From the NCBI RefSeq assembly GCF_001375555.1, contig NZ_CTDZ01000009.1, positions 3,093,758 to 3,157,757 on the forward strand: 64,000 nt of DNA, given 5' to 3'. The notes beneath the pieces were generated by a model. It was not told the origin of the DNA. It saw only the letters and a list, made by a program, of their open reading frames with translations, and did not search any database. Both the position numbers and the translations under genes were made by a program. Shown piece after piece: positions 7,749-30,795 of the stretch. Within the stretch, counting starts at the first letter, position 1. Each line of letters opens with the position of its first letter. Origin of the DNA: Numidum massiliense. GTDB taxonomy: Bacteria; Bacillota; Bacilli; Thermoactinomycetales; Novibacillaceae.

Positions 7749-8447
7749 TTAACGGGTAGCGAGCGACGACACGTTCACGCGTACGCCTGGTCCCATCGTC
7801 GAAGAGATGGTTACACTGCGCATATACGTTCCTTTTGCTGCTGGCGGTTTCGCCTTCACTAACGTGTCAATCAACGTCTCTAAGTTTTCTTGCAACTTAG
7901 CGGCGTCAAACGACACTTTACCGATCGGCGCGTGGACGTTACCCGCTTTGTCGACGCGGTATTCCACTTTCCCCGCTTTAATTTCGCCTACCGCCTTTGC
8001 CACGTCGAAAGTGACCGTTCCCGTTTTCGGGTTCGGCATAAGCCCTTTCGGCCCGAGAATACGCCCGAGCTTACCGACTTGACTCATCATGTCCGGCGTC
8101 GCCACGACGACATCGAAGTCGAGCCAGCCTTGGCTTACTTTGTCCACCATGTCTTCGTCACCGACGTAATCGGCACCGGCCGCTTCCGCTTCTTTCGCCT
8201 TCTCGCCTTTCGCAAACACTAAAACCGTTTGCGTTTTACCCGTACCGTGCGGTAGCACGACAGCGCCGCGCACTTGTTGGTCAGTGCGCTTCGGATCGAC
8301 GCCGAGGCGAACAGCGAGTTCGACCGTTTCGTCAAACTTAGCCGTCGCAATCTTTTTGACGATCTCAATCGCTTCAGCGGCAGCGTACGTCGCTTCGCGA
8401 TCAAATTGCTTTGCAGCTGCTTCGTATTTCTTACCTTTACCTGCCAA
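7749..8447 (-). CDS. rplA: Ribosomal protein uL1
   Basis: This binds 23S rRNA at the L1 stalk and helps release tRNA from the E site; it is also a translational repressor of its own operon in many bacteria. Length is 232 residues, as expected. The L1 signature [19 protein letters not shown] is intact. The start is a TTG at 8445-8447 ([11 protein letters not shown]) preceded by AAGGAGG. It follows rplK by 63 bases as part of one transcript. Confidence 0.97.
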
Positions 8448-8510
8448 TGTTCTTTCCTCCTTTGTGGTCGTAACGGAAGGATCTTCCTCCCACTTTTATC
8501 GAGATGCGAC

Positions 8511-8936
8511 TTAATCTTCGATCGCAATGCCCATACTTTTAGCCGTTCCTTCAACCATGCGCATCGCCGCTTCGACCGTCGCCGCATTCAAGTCAGCCAT
8601 TTTCGATTCCGCAATTTCCCGAACCTTATCGCGCTTAACGGTGGCAACCTTCTTTTTGTTCGGCTCCCCCGATGCCGTATCGATGCCGCATGCTTTTTTT
8701 AACAGTACGGCGGCCGGTGGAGTCTTCGTTACGAACGTAAACGAACGGTCTTCGAAAACGGTAATTTCCGCAGGGATAATTAGTCCAGCTTGTTCTTGTG
8801 TGCGGGCGTTAAACTCTTTACAAAACGCCATAATGTTAATCCCCGCCGGACCGAGCGCTGTCCCGACAGGCGGTGCTGGATTGGCTTTCCCGGCCGGAAC
8901 TTGCAACTTGATGACCTTGAAAACCTTCTTTGCCAC
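8511..8936 (-). CDS. rplK: Ribosomal protein uL11
   Basis: This is part of the GTPase-associated centre and is needed for RelA activation. Length is 141 residues from a GTG start at 8936 ([20 protein letters not shown]), which sits 6 bases after AAGGAGGTG. A longer in-frame start at 8945 would overlap that ribosome-binding site. The conserved proline-rich N-domain ([16 protein letters not shown]) and the thiostrepton-region C-domain ([15 protein letters not shown]) are present. Confidence 0.97.
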
Positions 8937-9225
8937 GTCACCCACCTCCTTGTGTCAAAATGTGGTAAGCGGGCCAACTGCCCTCCCACTTTGCAAAACG
9001 TACGTAACTGTTCATCGTTTGACGGTGTGATGAGAGGAAAGGGTGAAATAAGGCCCATACTGCTACACCCTTAAACAAAAACAATTTATCACACCTACCA
9101 TGCAATTGCAACACTCACTTTCGCAATTACACGCCAGCCGAACGTGACGCCACACTCAGCCGATCGGTGTGGCTAGTGAACGATGCTAGCGCGCTATCTA
9201 CTACTTGGCGCCAACGTCAACCAGA
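8937..9225 (-). promoter_or_regulatory. rplK leader and promoter
   Basis: This non-coding stretch carries a sigma-A promoter on the minus strand: TTGCAA (9106-9111), a 17-bp spacer and TAAATT (9083-9088). That implies a leader of about 140 nt. In it a GTGGGAGGGCAGTTGGCCCGC segment (about 8970-8992) can fold; L11/L1 operons often carry an L1-binding mimic of 23S rRNA here, which is a possible reading. Confidence 0.5.
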
Positions 9226-9261
9226 TAAAAAAGTGAAACTCGGCTCCTTGTGGGGGCCGAG
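9226..9261 (-). terminator. Intrinsic terminator after nusG
   Basis: The hairpin CTCGGC/GCCGAG (9239-9244 with 9256-9261) is followed on the minus strand by TTTCACTTTTTT. It sits directly after the nusG stop and separates secE-nusG from the rplK operon. Confidence 0.75.
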
Positions 9262-14480: not shown

Positions 14481-15188
14481 CTATGCGCGGCACGTTTCTT
14501 CCTCCTCTACACGATGCGCTGCTTTCTCTTCGCAACAGGCGTGCATTTCCGCTTGCAAGGCAGCCAGCTCACTTCTTAGCTGCACAATTTCCCGCTCCAT
14601 CCACCGCAACCGATCGCTGACTGGATCGGGTAAATTCGTCTGATCGAAGTCGCTCGGTACACGTTCGCCGTCGCGGCGCACGACTCGCCCCGGTACGCCG
14701 ACGACCGTTGCATTAGGTGGTACTTCCTTTAGCACCACGGAGCCAGCACCGATTTTCGCGCAGCGCCCGATGCGAAACGCCCCGAGTACTTTTGCCCCGG
14801 ACGCGATGAGGACTCCGTCCTCGATCGTCGGGTGCCGCTTCCCTTTTTCTTTTCCGGTACCGCCGAGCGTCACGCCTTGATACAACGTCACGTCGTTGCC
14901 GATCTCGCACGTTTCCCCGATGACGACGCCCATGCCGTGGTCAATAAATACTCGCTGACCGATCGTCGCCCCCGGGTGAATCTCAATTCCCGTAAAAAAG
15001 CGACTCAACTGGGAAATGATGCGCGCGAGCAACAGTAGTTTGCGTTTGTACAATGCGTGAGCGATGCGATGTGCCCAAATAGCGTGCAACCCGGAGTACG
15101 TCAGCACGACTTCAAACTTGTTGCGTGCCGCCGGGTCGCGCTCCAACACGACGTTGACATCGTTTTTTATCGTTTGCCAAAATGCCAT
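14481..15188 (-). CDS. cysE: Serine O-acetyltransferase
   Basis: This makes O-acetylserine, the precursor that CysK turns into cysteine. The left-handed beta-helix of hexapeptide repeats is clear ([29 protein letters not shown]), with the active-site histidines in FIDHGMG and [10 protein letters not shown]. The ATG at 15188 ([10 protein letters not shown]) follows GGGGG by 9 bases. The C-terminal 50 residues (coiled, ending in [16 protein letters not shown]) are not part of the catalytic domain. Confidence 0.96.
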
Positions 15189-15280
15189 TGTCACCATCCC
15201 CCAAGCAGGCCGCTCCGAATAAGGCGACCGTTATTTACCGCTCACTTCGCTACAAAAAGCTTTTCGTACGTTAGTGTGTA

Positions 15281-15560
15281 CGAAAAGACCGCCTCTCATA
15301 GCCTTCAGCTACAGAGACGGTCTTTTTGTGTCCGCGGTTCCACTCTGCTTGAGTCTTTTGCCACGCAAAAGACTCCCCTCATCATTCCCGGTAACGGCGG
15401 GATCCGGTAAGAGCCTACACTGCGAAGTGCAGCTTTAGCTCCCAACTCCCAGGTGCATCGCGACTAACGACAAACTAGGACGGCTTTCAGCCGGTGACCG
15501 CCTTCTCTGTCAGTTCGTCGTGTCTTTAGTCGCCTCTCCTGTTCATCGTCTGTCCATCGC
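15281..15560 (-). promoter_or_regulatory. Cysteine T-box riboswitch upstream of cysE-cysS
   Basis: All parts of a T-box are readable on the minus strand. Stem I is closed by CAGG/CCTG and GCGACTAA/TTAGTCGC. Between these helices the 3' side of the specifier loop is GA-TGC-A, so the specifier is UGC for cysteine (15455-15457). The distal loop has the usual GGCTGAAAGCC. The T-box sequence GTGGAACCGCGG lies at 15332-15344. A terminator stem AAAGACCG.../...CGGTCTTT follows (15283-15327). Uncharged tRNA-Cys should favour read-through into cysE. Confidence 0.93.
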
Positions 15561-19741: not shown

Positions 19742-20233
19742 TCACTCCGAATTTTTTTGGCCGACGGTATCGTCCACCAGCGAACACATCTGCTCTTCTT
19801 CCATGTCTTTCGCCAATACGAGCTCGCTAATGAGAATGCGCTTCGCTGTGTCTAACATTTTTCGTTCACCTGTCGACAACCCTTTACCGTGATCGCGCGA
19901 CATGAGTGAACGAACGACGTCCGCCAATTCGTATATGTCACCGCTCCTCATTTTGTCGAGGTTGATGCGGAAACGATGATTCCAGTTCGCAACCGATAGG
20001 TCATCTTCACCCTTTAAGAATTCGATGACGCGGTTAGCTGATTGCTCATCGACGACGCCTCTCAGACCGACGCTGTTCACACTGCTCATCGGCAAGAGAG
20101 CTTTAATGTTCCCTACGGGAAGATGCATGACATAGTACTGCTTTTTCTCCCCGAGGATCTCTTTTTCTTCAATCGCTTCGATGATTCCAGCTCCGTGCAT
20201 CGGATAAACGACCTTATCGCCCACCTTAAACAA
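19742..20233 (-). CDS. carD: CarD/CdnL-type RNA polymerase-binding factor
   Basis: CarD-family proteins bind the beta subunit and stabilise open promoter complexes. Length is 163 residues. The N-terminal RNA polymerase-interaction domain starts with MFKVGDKVVYPMHGAGIIEA, and a helical DNA-contacting domain follows (ANWNHRFRINLDKM, DVVRSLMSRDHGKGLS). I choose TTG 20231-20233, five bases after GGAGGTG. The gene lies between pssA and yacL, as in related Bacilli. Confidence 0.93.
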   Translation of the reverse strand: MFKVGDKVVYPMHGAGIIEAIEEKEILGEKKQYYVMHLPVGNIKALLPMSSVNSVGLRGVVDEQSANRVIEFLKGEDDLSVANWNHRFRINLDKMRSGDIYELADVVRSLMSRDHGKGLSTGERKMLDTAKRILISELVLAKDMEEEQMCSLVDDTVGQKNSE

Positions 20234-20263
20234 ACGCGCCACCTCCACGGAAAATATACTTTC

Positions 20264-20292
20264 AAAGTAACACACACAGCGGGAGATGTCAA
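20264..20292 (-). promoter_or_regulatory. sigma-A promoter for carD
   Basis: A perfect -35 TTGACA (20287-20292), a 17-bp spacer and a weak -10 TACTTT (20264-20269) on the minus strand. A weak -10 at a gene whose product stabilises open complexes is noteworthy but may be coincidence. Confidence 0.6.
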
Positions 20293-20616
20293 TTGTTTTA
20301 AAAAGATTAATCGTAGCATATCCCTACGAGTGCCGTCAATACATTTTTTCTAACAAAAAATCGGCCTGCGGAAAGCGATGATCACCTTTTTAAATAATTT
20401 AAGAGTAGATGACTATAAATATCTGGTTATTTCTATCATCTCCTCCTAAATAAGGGCGCGAATAAGGTTATGTTGATAATTTTACTTTCACGCTAATTGA
20501 TGAAACTGCAGTGCCTTCGCTTGCACATATGCGCAAAAGTAGGCAGCCAAAAAAACATCTCTACCTTAATCAACGGAATAATTTTTGTAAAGGTTCCACC
20601 TTTTTCACGCCAACCC
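20293..20616. other. AT-rich intergenic stretch without a recognisable gene
   Basis: About 320 bases between the pssA terminator and the carD promoter, clearly more AT-rich than the genes around it. On the minus strand a good AGGAGG precedes an 8-codon frame (ATG at 20439, stop at 20413), too short to support as a gene. A short AAAGGT/ACCTTT hairpin lies near 20590-20604. I see no conserved RNA motif. Confidence 0.4.
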
Positions 20617-28355: not shown

Positions 28356-28829
28356 TTATCCCCTTTCTGTGCGCACCACTAAGCTCCTAATGAATGCCAA
28401 CATGATGTTGGCGCGTAGTTGGTCGCGAATCGGTGTCGGCACTTTAATGACTTCTCGCGAGATCGCGGCTCGCATCAGATGCGCTTCACGCGTGGTCACC
28501 ATATCTTGTTCGTACAGCTGTTCGATCACACCTTCTGCTGCCGTCTCCGTTATGCTGCCCCCGATTAATTTTACGATGTTGTCGTACCACGCTTTCGGGC
28601 ACGTCCACTCTATTTTGGAGATGCGGATGTAGCCACCGCCTCCCCGTTTGCTCTCTACGTGATAACCTTGTTCTACGGTAAAGCGCGTACTGATGACGTA
28701 ATTAATTTGCGATGGCACGCACTGAAACATTTTGGCGAGTTCGCTGCGTTGGATCTCGAGAGAACCGTCACCGCACTGCGCGAGTATTTGCTTGATGTGC
28801 TGCTCGATGATGTCCGAAATATTCGCCAT
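28356..28829 (-). CDS. ctsR: Transcriptional repressor CtsR
   Basis: CtsR represses class III heat-shock genes and itself. Length is 157 residues. The winged helix-turn-helix domain (FQCVPSQINYVISTRFT) and the glycine-rich wing (ESKRGGGGYIRI), which acts as the heat sensor in the family, are both intact. The binding sites are visible directly upstream at its own promoter, so autoregulation is expected. Confidence 0.97.
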   Translation of the reverse strand: MANISDIIEQHIKQILAQCGDGSLEIQRSELAKMFQCVPSQINYVISTRFTVEQGYHVESKRGGGGYIRISKIEWTCPKAWYDNIVKLIGGSITETAAEGVIEQLYEQDMVTTREAHLMRAAISREVIKVPTPIRDQLRANIMLAFIRSLVVRTERG

Positions 28830-28840
28830 ATCCCGCCTCC

Positions 28841-28863
28841 GTTGACCTTGACTAACTTTGACC
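28841..28863 (-). promoter_or_regulatory. CtsR operator
   Basis: On the minus strand the heptads GGTCAAA and AGTCAAG (28857-28863 and 28847-28853) are separated by three bases, the exact spacing of CtsR boxes. A third, partial GGTCAAC follows directly. The site lies between the -10 and the ctsR start. Confidence 0.85.
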
Positions 28864-28873
28864 TTATGTCTTT

Positions 28874-28902
28874 ATTATATAAAGTGTGCCGCCGTTTGAC
28901 AA
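28874..28902 (-). promoter_or_regulatory. sigma-A promoter for ctsR-mcsA-mcsB-clpC
   Basis: -35 TTGTCA (28897-28902), a 17-bp spacer, and perfect -10 TATAAT (28874-28879) on the minus strand, directly before the CtsR operator. Confidence 0.85.
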
Positions 28903-28965
28903 GTGGCGGAGGCCAATTTATTTCTTATATTGCCCTAACCAGGTGGTGCGATATACAAAATTTCA

Positions 28966-29012
28966 AAAAAAACTTGGTTCCGCCACGACGGCGAAACCAA
29001 GTTTTTGAAAAG
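28966..29012 (-). terminator. Intrinsic terminator upstream of ctsR
   Basis: A long hairpin AAACTTGGTTtCGCC/GGCGgAACCAAGTTT followed on the minus strand by a run of T. It ends the NlpC/P60 transcript after about 170 nt of structured 3' region. Confidence 0.9.
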
Positions 29013-29177
29013 TAGTTGTTCGAAAGGCCCCGATATGATGACTGTCGTTTATGGTGCTACCATCAGTCGCTTCTCGAACAATTACTTGCACGCCTGTCGG
29101 AACATCCCCATGGTGCTTCCGACAGTTGTATCATTAGTGAAAGGTCTCTTCACTCACCGATCACGGTTCGTTAACGT
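29013..29177 (-). ncRNA. Structured 3' region of the NlpC/P60 transcript, function unknown
   Basis: Between the stop codon and the terminator the minus-strand RNA can form three stems in a row. These are AGTGAA/TTCACT, then a perfect 9-bp CTGTCGGAA/TTCCGACAG (29092-29124), then an 8-bp TTGTTCGA/TCGAACAA (29024-29084). The last encloses a nested GACTG/CAGTC and ATGGT-AGC-ACCAT. The word GCACCAT recurs in two of the stems. I do not recognise the element; it may be a 3' UTR, a processed small RNA, or an RNA gene of its own. Confidence 0.45.
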
Positions 29178-30440
29178 CTAATGCAGCTTTTTCGTCCCCA
29201 TATAATGGCTTCCCCAGTATGGGCCGTAGACGTTGCTAATTTCTACACCGGAACTTGCGGAGTGAATGAACAAGTTACCGCCGATGTAAATACCCGCGTG
29301 AGTGGCACCTGGAGCACTATACGTGCTATGGAAGAAGACGACGTCCCCTTGTTTTTTCTTGGATACGCGCTTCCCTTTGTTCCACATCGCTTGAGTCGTG
29401 CGCGGTAAGTGTACGCCCTGCTTTTTGTACACGTAAAGGAGAAAGCCGCTGCAATCAAAGCCGCCCGGTGATGTCCCGCCCCAACGGTAGGGAGTGCCGA
29501 GATGCCGCTTTGCCTCTTTAACGAGCTTTTTCGTGTTGAGTCCTTTTTTCTTCTTCGGTGCTTTCTTGCTCTTCTTTTTCTTTTTAACTGGCTTTACTTT
29601 CCCTTTCACCGCATCGTTCACTTTCTTAATCGTCTGCGGACCAGCGACGCCAGTCACTTTCATACCGTAAGCCCACTGAAAGTCTTTGACAGCTTTCTGT
29701 GTCACTGTGCCGTAATAGCCAGTCACACCGACTTTAAAGTAGCCGAGTTTTTTTAGCTTCTTTTGCAAGTCAGTAACGGCTTTACCAGTTGAACCGATGC
29801 GCAGCGTCTTAACTTTTTTTGCTGGCTTCTTTGCCGACTTTTTGGTAGTTTTCTTGGCTGGCTTTTTCTTCGCCTTTTTCGCCTTAGCCGCTTTATTGAT
29901 CTTAGCAATCGTTTTTGACCCTGCGATTCCGTTTGCCTTTAGCTTGTGCTTCTTCTGGAATGCCTTCACGGCATTCTTAGTGATTGGGCCGTAGTAACCA
30001 GTGACGTTCGTTTTAAAGTAGCCGAGTCTTTTCAACTTCGACTGAAGATCCTTTACTTTCTTACCGCTCATTCCTTGGCGCAGCGTCTTCGCCTTTTTGG
30101 AACTGCCCGACGCTTTAGAGGTAACTGCTTTACCTTTTTTTACACCTAGCGCTCGGAACGTACGCTTGTCGACGACGCCGCTCGCCTTAACCTTATGGGC
30201 GCGTTGAAAGTCTTTCACGGCTTTCGTCGTAATCGGCCCAAAGTAGCCCGTCGACTTTTTGTACTTGAAATAGCCTTTCTTCTTCAACTTGTCCTGCAGC
30301 TGCTTCACATCTTTATGACTCATGCCTTCCCGGAGCGTTTGATCCCCGAGTGCGGCATAACTGTTCAGGGGTACTGCGAATAGCGCGACCCCAAGTGTCA
30401 ATGCTAAGAGACGCTTCATAAAGGTTTGGAAGCGTGACAC
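29178..30440 (-). CDS. Secreted NlpC/P60 peptidoglycan hydrolase with three PG-binding repeats
   Basis: A 420-residue secreted cell-wall enzyme. A signal peptide (about residues 8-29, FMKRLLALTLGVALFAVPL) is followed by three PG_binding_1 repeats at about 36-97, 117-182 and 211-277. Each ends in a G-YFGPIT or G-YYGPIT-type motif. They are joined by Lys/Ala-rich linkers, and the NlpC/P60 domain occupies the last 120 residues. The catalytic triad appears as DCSGFLLY, HAGIYIG and the following HSAS. It probably cuts D-Glu-DAP peptide bonds. The start is GTG 30440, after GGGGAGGT. It occupies the position where B. subtilis has rRNA operons, between lysS and ctsR. Confidence 0.93.
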   Translation of the reverse strand: MSRFQTFMKRLLALTLGVALFAVPLNSYAALGDQTLREGMSHKDVKQLQDKLKKKGYFKYKKSTGYFGPITTKAVKDFQRAHKVKASGVVDKRTFRALGVKKGKAVTSKASGSSKKAKTLRQGMSGKKVKDLQSKLKRLGYFKTNVTGYYGPITKNAVKAFQKKHKLKANGIAGSKTIAKINKAAKAKKAKKKPAKKTTKKSAKKPAKKVKTLRIGSTGKAVTDLQKKLKKLGYFKVGVTGYYGTVTQKAVKDFQWAYGMKVTGVAGPQTIKKVNDAVKGKVKPVKKKKKSKKAPKKKKGLNTKKLVKEAKRHLGTPYRWGGTSPGGFDCSGFLLYVYKKQGVHLPRTTQAMWNKGKRVSKKKQGDVVFFHSTYSAPGATHAGIYIGGNLFIHSASSGVEISNVYGPYWGSHYMGTKKLH

Positions 30441-30795
30441 TAATGTTTACCTCCCCTTACTCTTTCATCTGTGTATTCGATGATCCCCTTATCCGCAAGA
30501 TGTAGTCTATGTGTATACATGCCCTTGTCGGAATGTCTGTCCGCTACCCTCCTTTCGCTTTGCTATTGCACCTGTTGTATAGCACCTTGCTGTATATTAC
30601 CAACAATAACACACTTGCGGACAAAATTGGTAGAGTTATTTTTTCGCCTCAGTCACCACCTCCTTATTCACACGTACTTGCTCTAGCTAGTGTCAACGAG
30701 GTGTCTGGCGTGAAATGAGCATTCAAACAGGCTAACGTCGCTCGGGAAAAAAAAGTTTCAACACGTGTAAAAAAACCGTTCCAGAGGGCAATTGA
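30441..30795 (-). promoter_or_regulatory. Leader of the NlpC/P60 gene with a long-range helix
   Basis: There is no protein gene here. On the minus strand TTGTCCGCAAG (30614-30624) can pair with CTTGCGGATAA (30489-30499), giving 11 pairs with one G-U and enclosing 114 nt. Inside it TGCTAT/ATAGCA forms a 6-bp hairpin. Near 30650-30665 an AAGGAGGTG precedes a 6-codon frame (GTG ACT GAG GCG AAA AAA TAA). The whole looks like a regulatory leader, but I cannot match it to a known riboswitch class, including the c-di-AMP one common at such genes. Confidence 0.4.

Follow-up and report, generated by a model that had tools for sequence, protein, structure and literature searches.

A probably lineage-specific, hairpin-rich 3' untranslated region of an NlpC/P60 mRNA in Numidum massiliense

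We report that the mRNA of an NlpC/P60 gene (nlpC) of N. massiliense probably has a lineage-specific, hairpin-rich 3' untranslated region (3' UTR). The interval lies behind the stop codon, its predicted fold is stabler than the folds of shuffled sequences, a strong terminator comes next, and no recognisable copy is present in the genomes searched. The exact sequence can probably vary freely, which is common in 3' UTRs of closely related organisms. Positions are given for the window, i.e. the whole 64-kb stretch of DNA that was analysed, unless another stretch or genome is named.

Position and predicted fold of the 3' interval

The nlpC open reading frame (29178-30440, minus strand) encodes three PG_binding_1 domains and a C-terminal NLPC_P60 domain as judged by Pfam, and ends in the stop codon TAG (29180-29178). 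Behind it, on the same strand, follow an interval of 171 nt (29177-29007) and an intrinsic terminator (29006-28968) with 17-nt arms that are 94% complementary, a loop of 5 and then a T run, i.e. the arrangement of a 3' UTR with an intrinsic terminator (stop codon, interval, hairpin and U run). This terminator is absent from the output of a stricter terminator pattern scan. Downstream of it, also on the minus strand, are a promoter-like site (28902-28874; TTGTCA, 17 nt, TATAAT; 11 of 12 consensus bases) and ctsR (28829-28356; Pfam CtsR and CtsR_C), so that all these elements follow one another on one strand, from the nlpC gene to ctsR. The three genes downstream of ctsR carry a UVR motif, an ATP:guanido phosphotransferase domain and Clp ATPase domains (Pfam), respectively, and going by the usual order we take them to be mcsA, mcsB and clpC. 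A segment just upstream of and around the ctsR promoter-like site (28903-28923) is 76% complementary over 21 nt to the nlpC terminator arm at 28966-28986. The interval itself contains three short open frames, with 23, 23 and 42 codons, none preceded by a clear ribosome-binding site as judged by eye.

The helix coordinates were taken from the minimum free energy (MFE) prediction for the minus strand of 29009-29177. In this prediction the interval begins with a weak hairpin of 4 bp (29167-29156) and a first larger hairpin of 7 bp including one G-U pair (29154-29136). The second hairpin (29125-29094) has a perfect 9-bp stem and four inner pairs, contains the word GCACCAT (29110-29116) and is surrounded by five weak pairs (29133-29087). 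The third is a long helix of 16 pairs (4+10+2; 29086-29011), which encloses the nested helices GACUG/CAGUC and AUGGU/ACCAU (29068-29040) as well as a further GCACCAT (29051-29057); viewed as an inverted repeat it has 19-nt arms that are 84% complementary. A long-range pairing between the 5' arm of the second hairpin and the 3' arm of the third was rejected, being about 12 kcal/mol worse (-41.0 vs -53.2 for the MFE structure).

An earlier, sequence-only reading had placed the stretch between the NlpC/P60 gene and a strong terminator and had described three successive helices, the third with two nested ones, and the word GCACCAT in two of the helices. These features are all borne out on the minus strand; the helix read as 6 bp is predicted to have 7 bp with one G-U pair, and the one read as 9 bp is the perfect stem of the second hairpin.

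Both copies of GCACCAT lie within a 17-nt direct repeat of which 14 positions are identical. The repeat was picked with knowledge of the sequence; none of 150 shuffles of the stretch contained one as good. In the MFE structure some bases of the word are paired in each hairpin, but not the same ones. In the whole window it occurs 10 times vs 5.8 expected, an enrichment that is not clear given that 7 of 100 shuffles had as many.

With the terminator excluded (29009-29177), only four of 1000 dinucleotide shuffles were as stable as the native sequence (two of 200 in a smaller run). Specifically, the stretch of the second hairpin (29085-29135) was matched by none of 1000 dinucleotide shuffles and that of the third (29008-29092) by eight of 1000; for the first 51 nt (29127-29177) the number was 167 of 1000, and the stretch of the first hairpin is therefore unremarkable. 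When 320 minus-strand segments of 169 nt in the 64 kb were compared (40 shuffles each), the one starting at 29001 had the third-lowest z-score; of the two ranking above it, one overlaps a T-box leader and the other starts at 20401. The latter (20401-20569, minus strand) has the lowest z-score of the 320 (-4.44) and falls in the gap that precedes a CarD-family gene (19742-20275). On the plus strand, 29013-29177 folds about as well as on the minus strand (z -2.58; 2 of 200 shuffles), and folding by itself is thus no proof of strand.

Our modelling accordingly gives a predicted fold that is stabler than composition predicts, for a stretch that was picked by eye from many, and the shuffles carry no information on what it does. 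This choice by eye is the starting point of the reading in which the stretch has no function and is just one, only moderately unusual, of many intergenic stretches. It can point to the seven of 320 segments in the 64 kb with z-scores of -2.87 or lower, one of which overlaps the T-box leader; the rank of the segment at 29001 and the failure of any of 1000 shuffles to match the second hairpin speak against it, and we regard it as extremely improbable.

Search for homologues

The family is represented by two genomes in the collection. The other one (G001) keeps nlpC directly before ctsR, with an NlpC protein that is 47% identical and a CtsR that is 71% identical, but its nlpC stop codon is followed by approximately 43 nt, predicted to form one small hairpin, and then by a terminator-like hairpin. 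In a pairwise alignment with this G001 interval no counterpart of the second or third hairpin was found. Moreover, BLAST of the interval against 60 other relatives gave no match at an E-value of 0.001, and in its own genome the remaining matches were to the terminator palindrome or were fragments of 14-25 bp with E-values of at least 0.2.

A covariance model, which was built from the single sequence, found only the interval itself in its own genome at E-values up to 10, and two weak matches (E 0.28 and 0.75) in 40 other relatives under stricter filters. Applied to the window together with one further stretch (L069), the model returned, apart from the interval, one match on the plus strand at 28970-29085 (E 5.6e-6) and two matches at chance level (E 1.8 and 8.8). 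The plus-strand match overlaps the terminator and the third hairpin, as expected of near-palindromes, and was rejected.

A wider draw from the class comprised 398 genomes, including the genome itself and some relatives already searched, with two candidates scored per genome. Short BLAST matches at E-values of 0.01 or below were obtained in five of the 397 other genomes. The three of these that were inspected fall inside stop-to-stop frames of 224, 287 and 495 codons, are thus probably coding and were set aside; the best match in the draw has an E-value of 8.2e-5 for one genome, corresponding to about 0.03 over all. A scan of viral contigs with the pattern of the second hairpin gave no match, and neither did a scan of named genomes for NlpC; the corresponding CtsR scan gave three distant loci.

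An Rfam search, which had been suggested together with the sequence-only reading, yielded no family at threshold for 28880-29300 (Rfam 15; gathering score and relaxed E-value). The highest of seven sub-threshold matches was 23S-methyl with 19.6 bits vs 50, and the scan at gathering score is not fully sensitive, having missed the T-box leader in the window.

These searches bear on the reading in which the second and third hairpins (together about 115 nt) are what remains of a small DNA element, mobile or duplicated, that was inserted between the stop codon and the terminator. Without both hairpins the 3' UTR would be about as long as that of G001, the third hairpin is an inverted repeat (see above), and the 17-nt repeat is common to both. 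However, a dispersed repeat or MITE would have more than one genomic copy, and the stretch is present once in its own genome; no copy was found at an E-value of 0.001 in the 60 other relatives, and no target duplication is evident by eye. We consider such an insertion very unlikely.

The preferred reading, a lineage-specific 3' UTR, fits the lack of conservation, as would any other lineage-specific element equally. In Staphylococcus the 3' UTRs of orthologous genes are mostly unconserved, with sequence conservation lost around the stop codon, and the same holds for most orthologous mRNAs in Enterobacteriaceae and Bacillus, according to the review PMC7821165 (section 12). Since the stretch behaves likewise, its non-conservation speaks neither for nor against a function.

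Long and structured 3' ends in the same genome

How usual such 3' ends are was surveyed in the window and 20 stretches of 20 kb (464 kb altogether) with scripted, crude gene and terminator calls. The median distance from stop codon to hairpin at the 65 terminator-like sites behind genes was 65 nt. At 16 of the 65 it was 168 nt or more; the nlpC site is among these 16 and counts as 176 nt because a shorter core hairpin was used, and among the others are the T-box leader, a site following a tRNA and one or more intragenic sites. The claim of the sequence-only reading that 3' UTRs are otherwise short therefore stands for most sites, as judged by the median, but not for all. Two things weigh against regarding the stretch as an ordinary 3' UTR, namely that at least half of the sampled terminator-like sites are much nearer to the stop codon, and that the second and third hairpins and the 17-nt repeat exceed what was seen in shuffles.

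The 28 survey intervals of 60-340 nt were all folded for z-scores, and four of them scored below the nlpC interval (z -2.77). Two of the four are overlapping intervals behind codY (z -7.03, for an interval that takes in the first terminator, and -3.69), one is the T-box leader (-3.70) and one is an interval of 84 nt (-3.14). The T-box leader (15310-15555, minus strand) precedes a gene at 14481-15197 with hexapeptide-transferase repeats in Pfam, which presumably is cysE; its score of 69.9 bits is below the Rfam gathering score of 93, and it is therefore missed by a standard Rfam scan. In another stretch (L080), a 26-nt inverted repeat with 24 pairs (7843-7901) lies behind an ISL3-family transposase gene (7927-9237, minus strand; Pfam DDE_Tnp_ISL3).

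In the same genome, the 3' end of codY (stretch L090, 14893-15051, minus strand; CodY identified by Pfam) is hairpin-rich and 121 nt long. Like the nlpC 3' end it has a long outer helix around a 9-bp hairpin with a strong terminator next, and the stem GGTTNCGCC is common to the two terminators. The codY terminator has the stem GGTTCCGCC/GGCGGAACC, and a second terminator-like hairpin comes after it (L090, minus strand; G000, C9). Genome-wide, the GGTTNCGCC terminator stem was found only at the codY and nlpC sites, the control pattern giving 0 matches, and we take the shared stem to be a coincidence. A common origin of the two 3' ends was considered and rejected, since the alignment score was reached by 334 of 1000 shuffles with the terminators and by 865 of 1000 without them; the two are built alike, but their sequence similarity does not exceed chance.

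In G001 the codY 3' end has approximately 81 nt before a terminator-like hairpin and is somewhat structured (z -2.25), and no counterpart of the codY 3' hairpins was found in the alignment with that genome. CodY matches in G001 are located on C1 at 450548-451363, 755810-756615 and 3113460-3113663; they comprise one near-full-length match (84%), a second copy in three pieces and one piece of 70 residues, and a TAG inside the near-full-length match precedes the ATG of a 258-aa open reading frame.

Possible roles of the 3' interval

In S. aureus, 3' UTRs of more than 100 nt have been described for about one third of the mapped mRNAs, and the 3' UTR of icaR base-pairs with the Shine-Dalgarno region of the same mRNA, as reported in PMC3868564. 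The nlpC stretch resembles long structured 3' UTRs of Gram-positive mRNAs such as icaR in having more than 100 nt from stop codon to intrinsic terminator. It differs from icaR in lacking such excess pairing: with the 5' region of the gene, equally good pairing was obtained for 39 of 200 shuffles (30400-30720), and for 59 of 200 in the start region (30425-30475), by a duplex measure that strings together many short segments and is ill suited to judging a single short seed.

The pairing result bears directly on the reading of the stretch as a cis-regulatory 3' UTR, either bound by an RNA-binding protein or pairing with the 5' region of the same mRNA, as for icaR. Its length and structure resemble those of regulatory 3' UTRs in kind and GCACCAT occurs twice in it, yet the pairing with the 5' region is no better than for shuffles and the structural context of GCACCAT differs between its two copies. 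We judge this reading quite unlikely.

No sigma-A-type promoter was found on the minus strand before the stretch in scans of 28700-30700 for sigma-70-type sites, which likewise found none for nlpC itself. A 3'-UTR-derived small RNA can have a promoter of its own inside the end of the gene or arise by processing, and the scans are weak evidence against such an RNA. In the reading considered here it would be freed by RNase cleavage of the nlpC mRNA as the last 120-200 nt with the terminator and would use the GCACCAU words as seeds. With known RNAs of this kind the nlpC stretch would share the mRNA 3' end and the terminator, and its stable predicted body, strong terminator and repeated word in two hairpins are in keeping with such an origin. 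Two GGUGC sites (30586 and 30572), complementary to the first five bases of the word, lie in a 321-nt region that surrounds the nlpC start and extends upstream of it; this is a slight point in favour, as 21 of 500 shuffles had as many. On the other hand, some bases of the word are paired in each hairpin, not the same ones in the two, the word is not clearly enriched in the window, and the stretch differs from 3'-UTR-derived small RNAs in that no convincing homologue was found in the genomes searched. We consider a small RNA unlikely, and it would be highly improbable in its most specific form, i.e. a recently evolved 3'-derived small RNA, confined to this species, with two GCACCAU hairpins that bind GGUGC sites such as the two in its own nlpC leader. 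If that form were true, binding between GCACCAU and GGUGC in the nlpC leader would mean that a cell-wall hydrolase regulates its own expression. Taken together, the tests run gave no support to the 3'-derived small RNA or the protein target that the sequence-only reading had proposed, a processed small RNA is compatible with all of them, and we leave the matter undecided.

For the lineage-specific 3' UTR that we favour, the transcript would run from the nlpC gene through the interval and end at the terminator. Together with the terminator, the stacked hairpins may then shield the 3' end of the mRNA from 3'-to-5' exonucleases; hairpins such as those of intrinsic terminators inhibit PNPase, according to PMC7821165. 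Moreover, terminator and hairpins might stop transcription of nlpC from entering the ctsR operon, for which a separate promoter-like site is present. A stable fold in a single genome, with no relatives in which its pairing can be compared, is indistinguishable from ordinary 3' UTR structure. If functional, the interval would be another fast-changing structured 3' UTR, here on the mRNA of a cell-wall hydrolase beside the ctsR stress operon.
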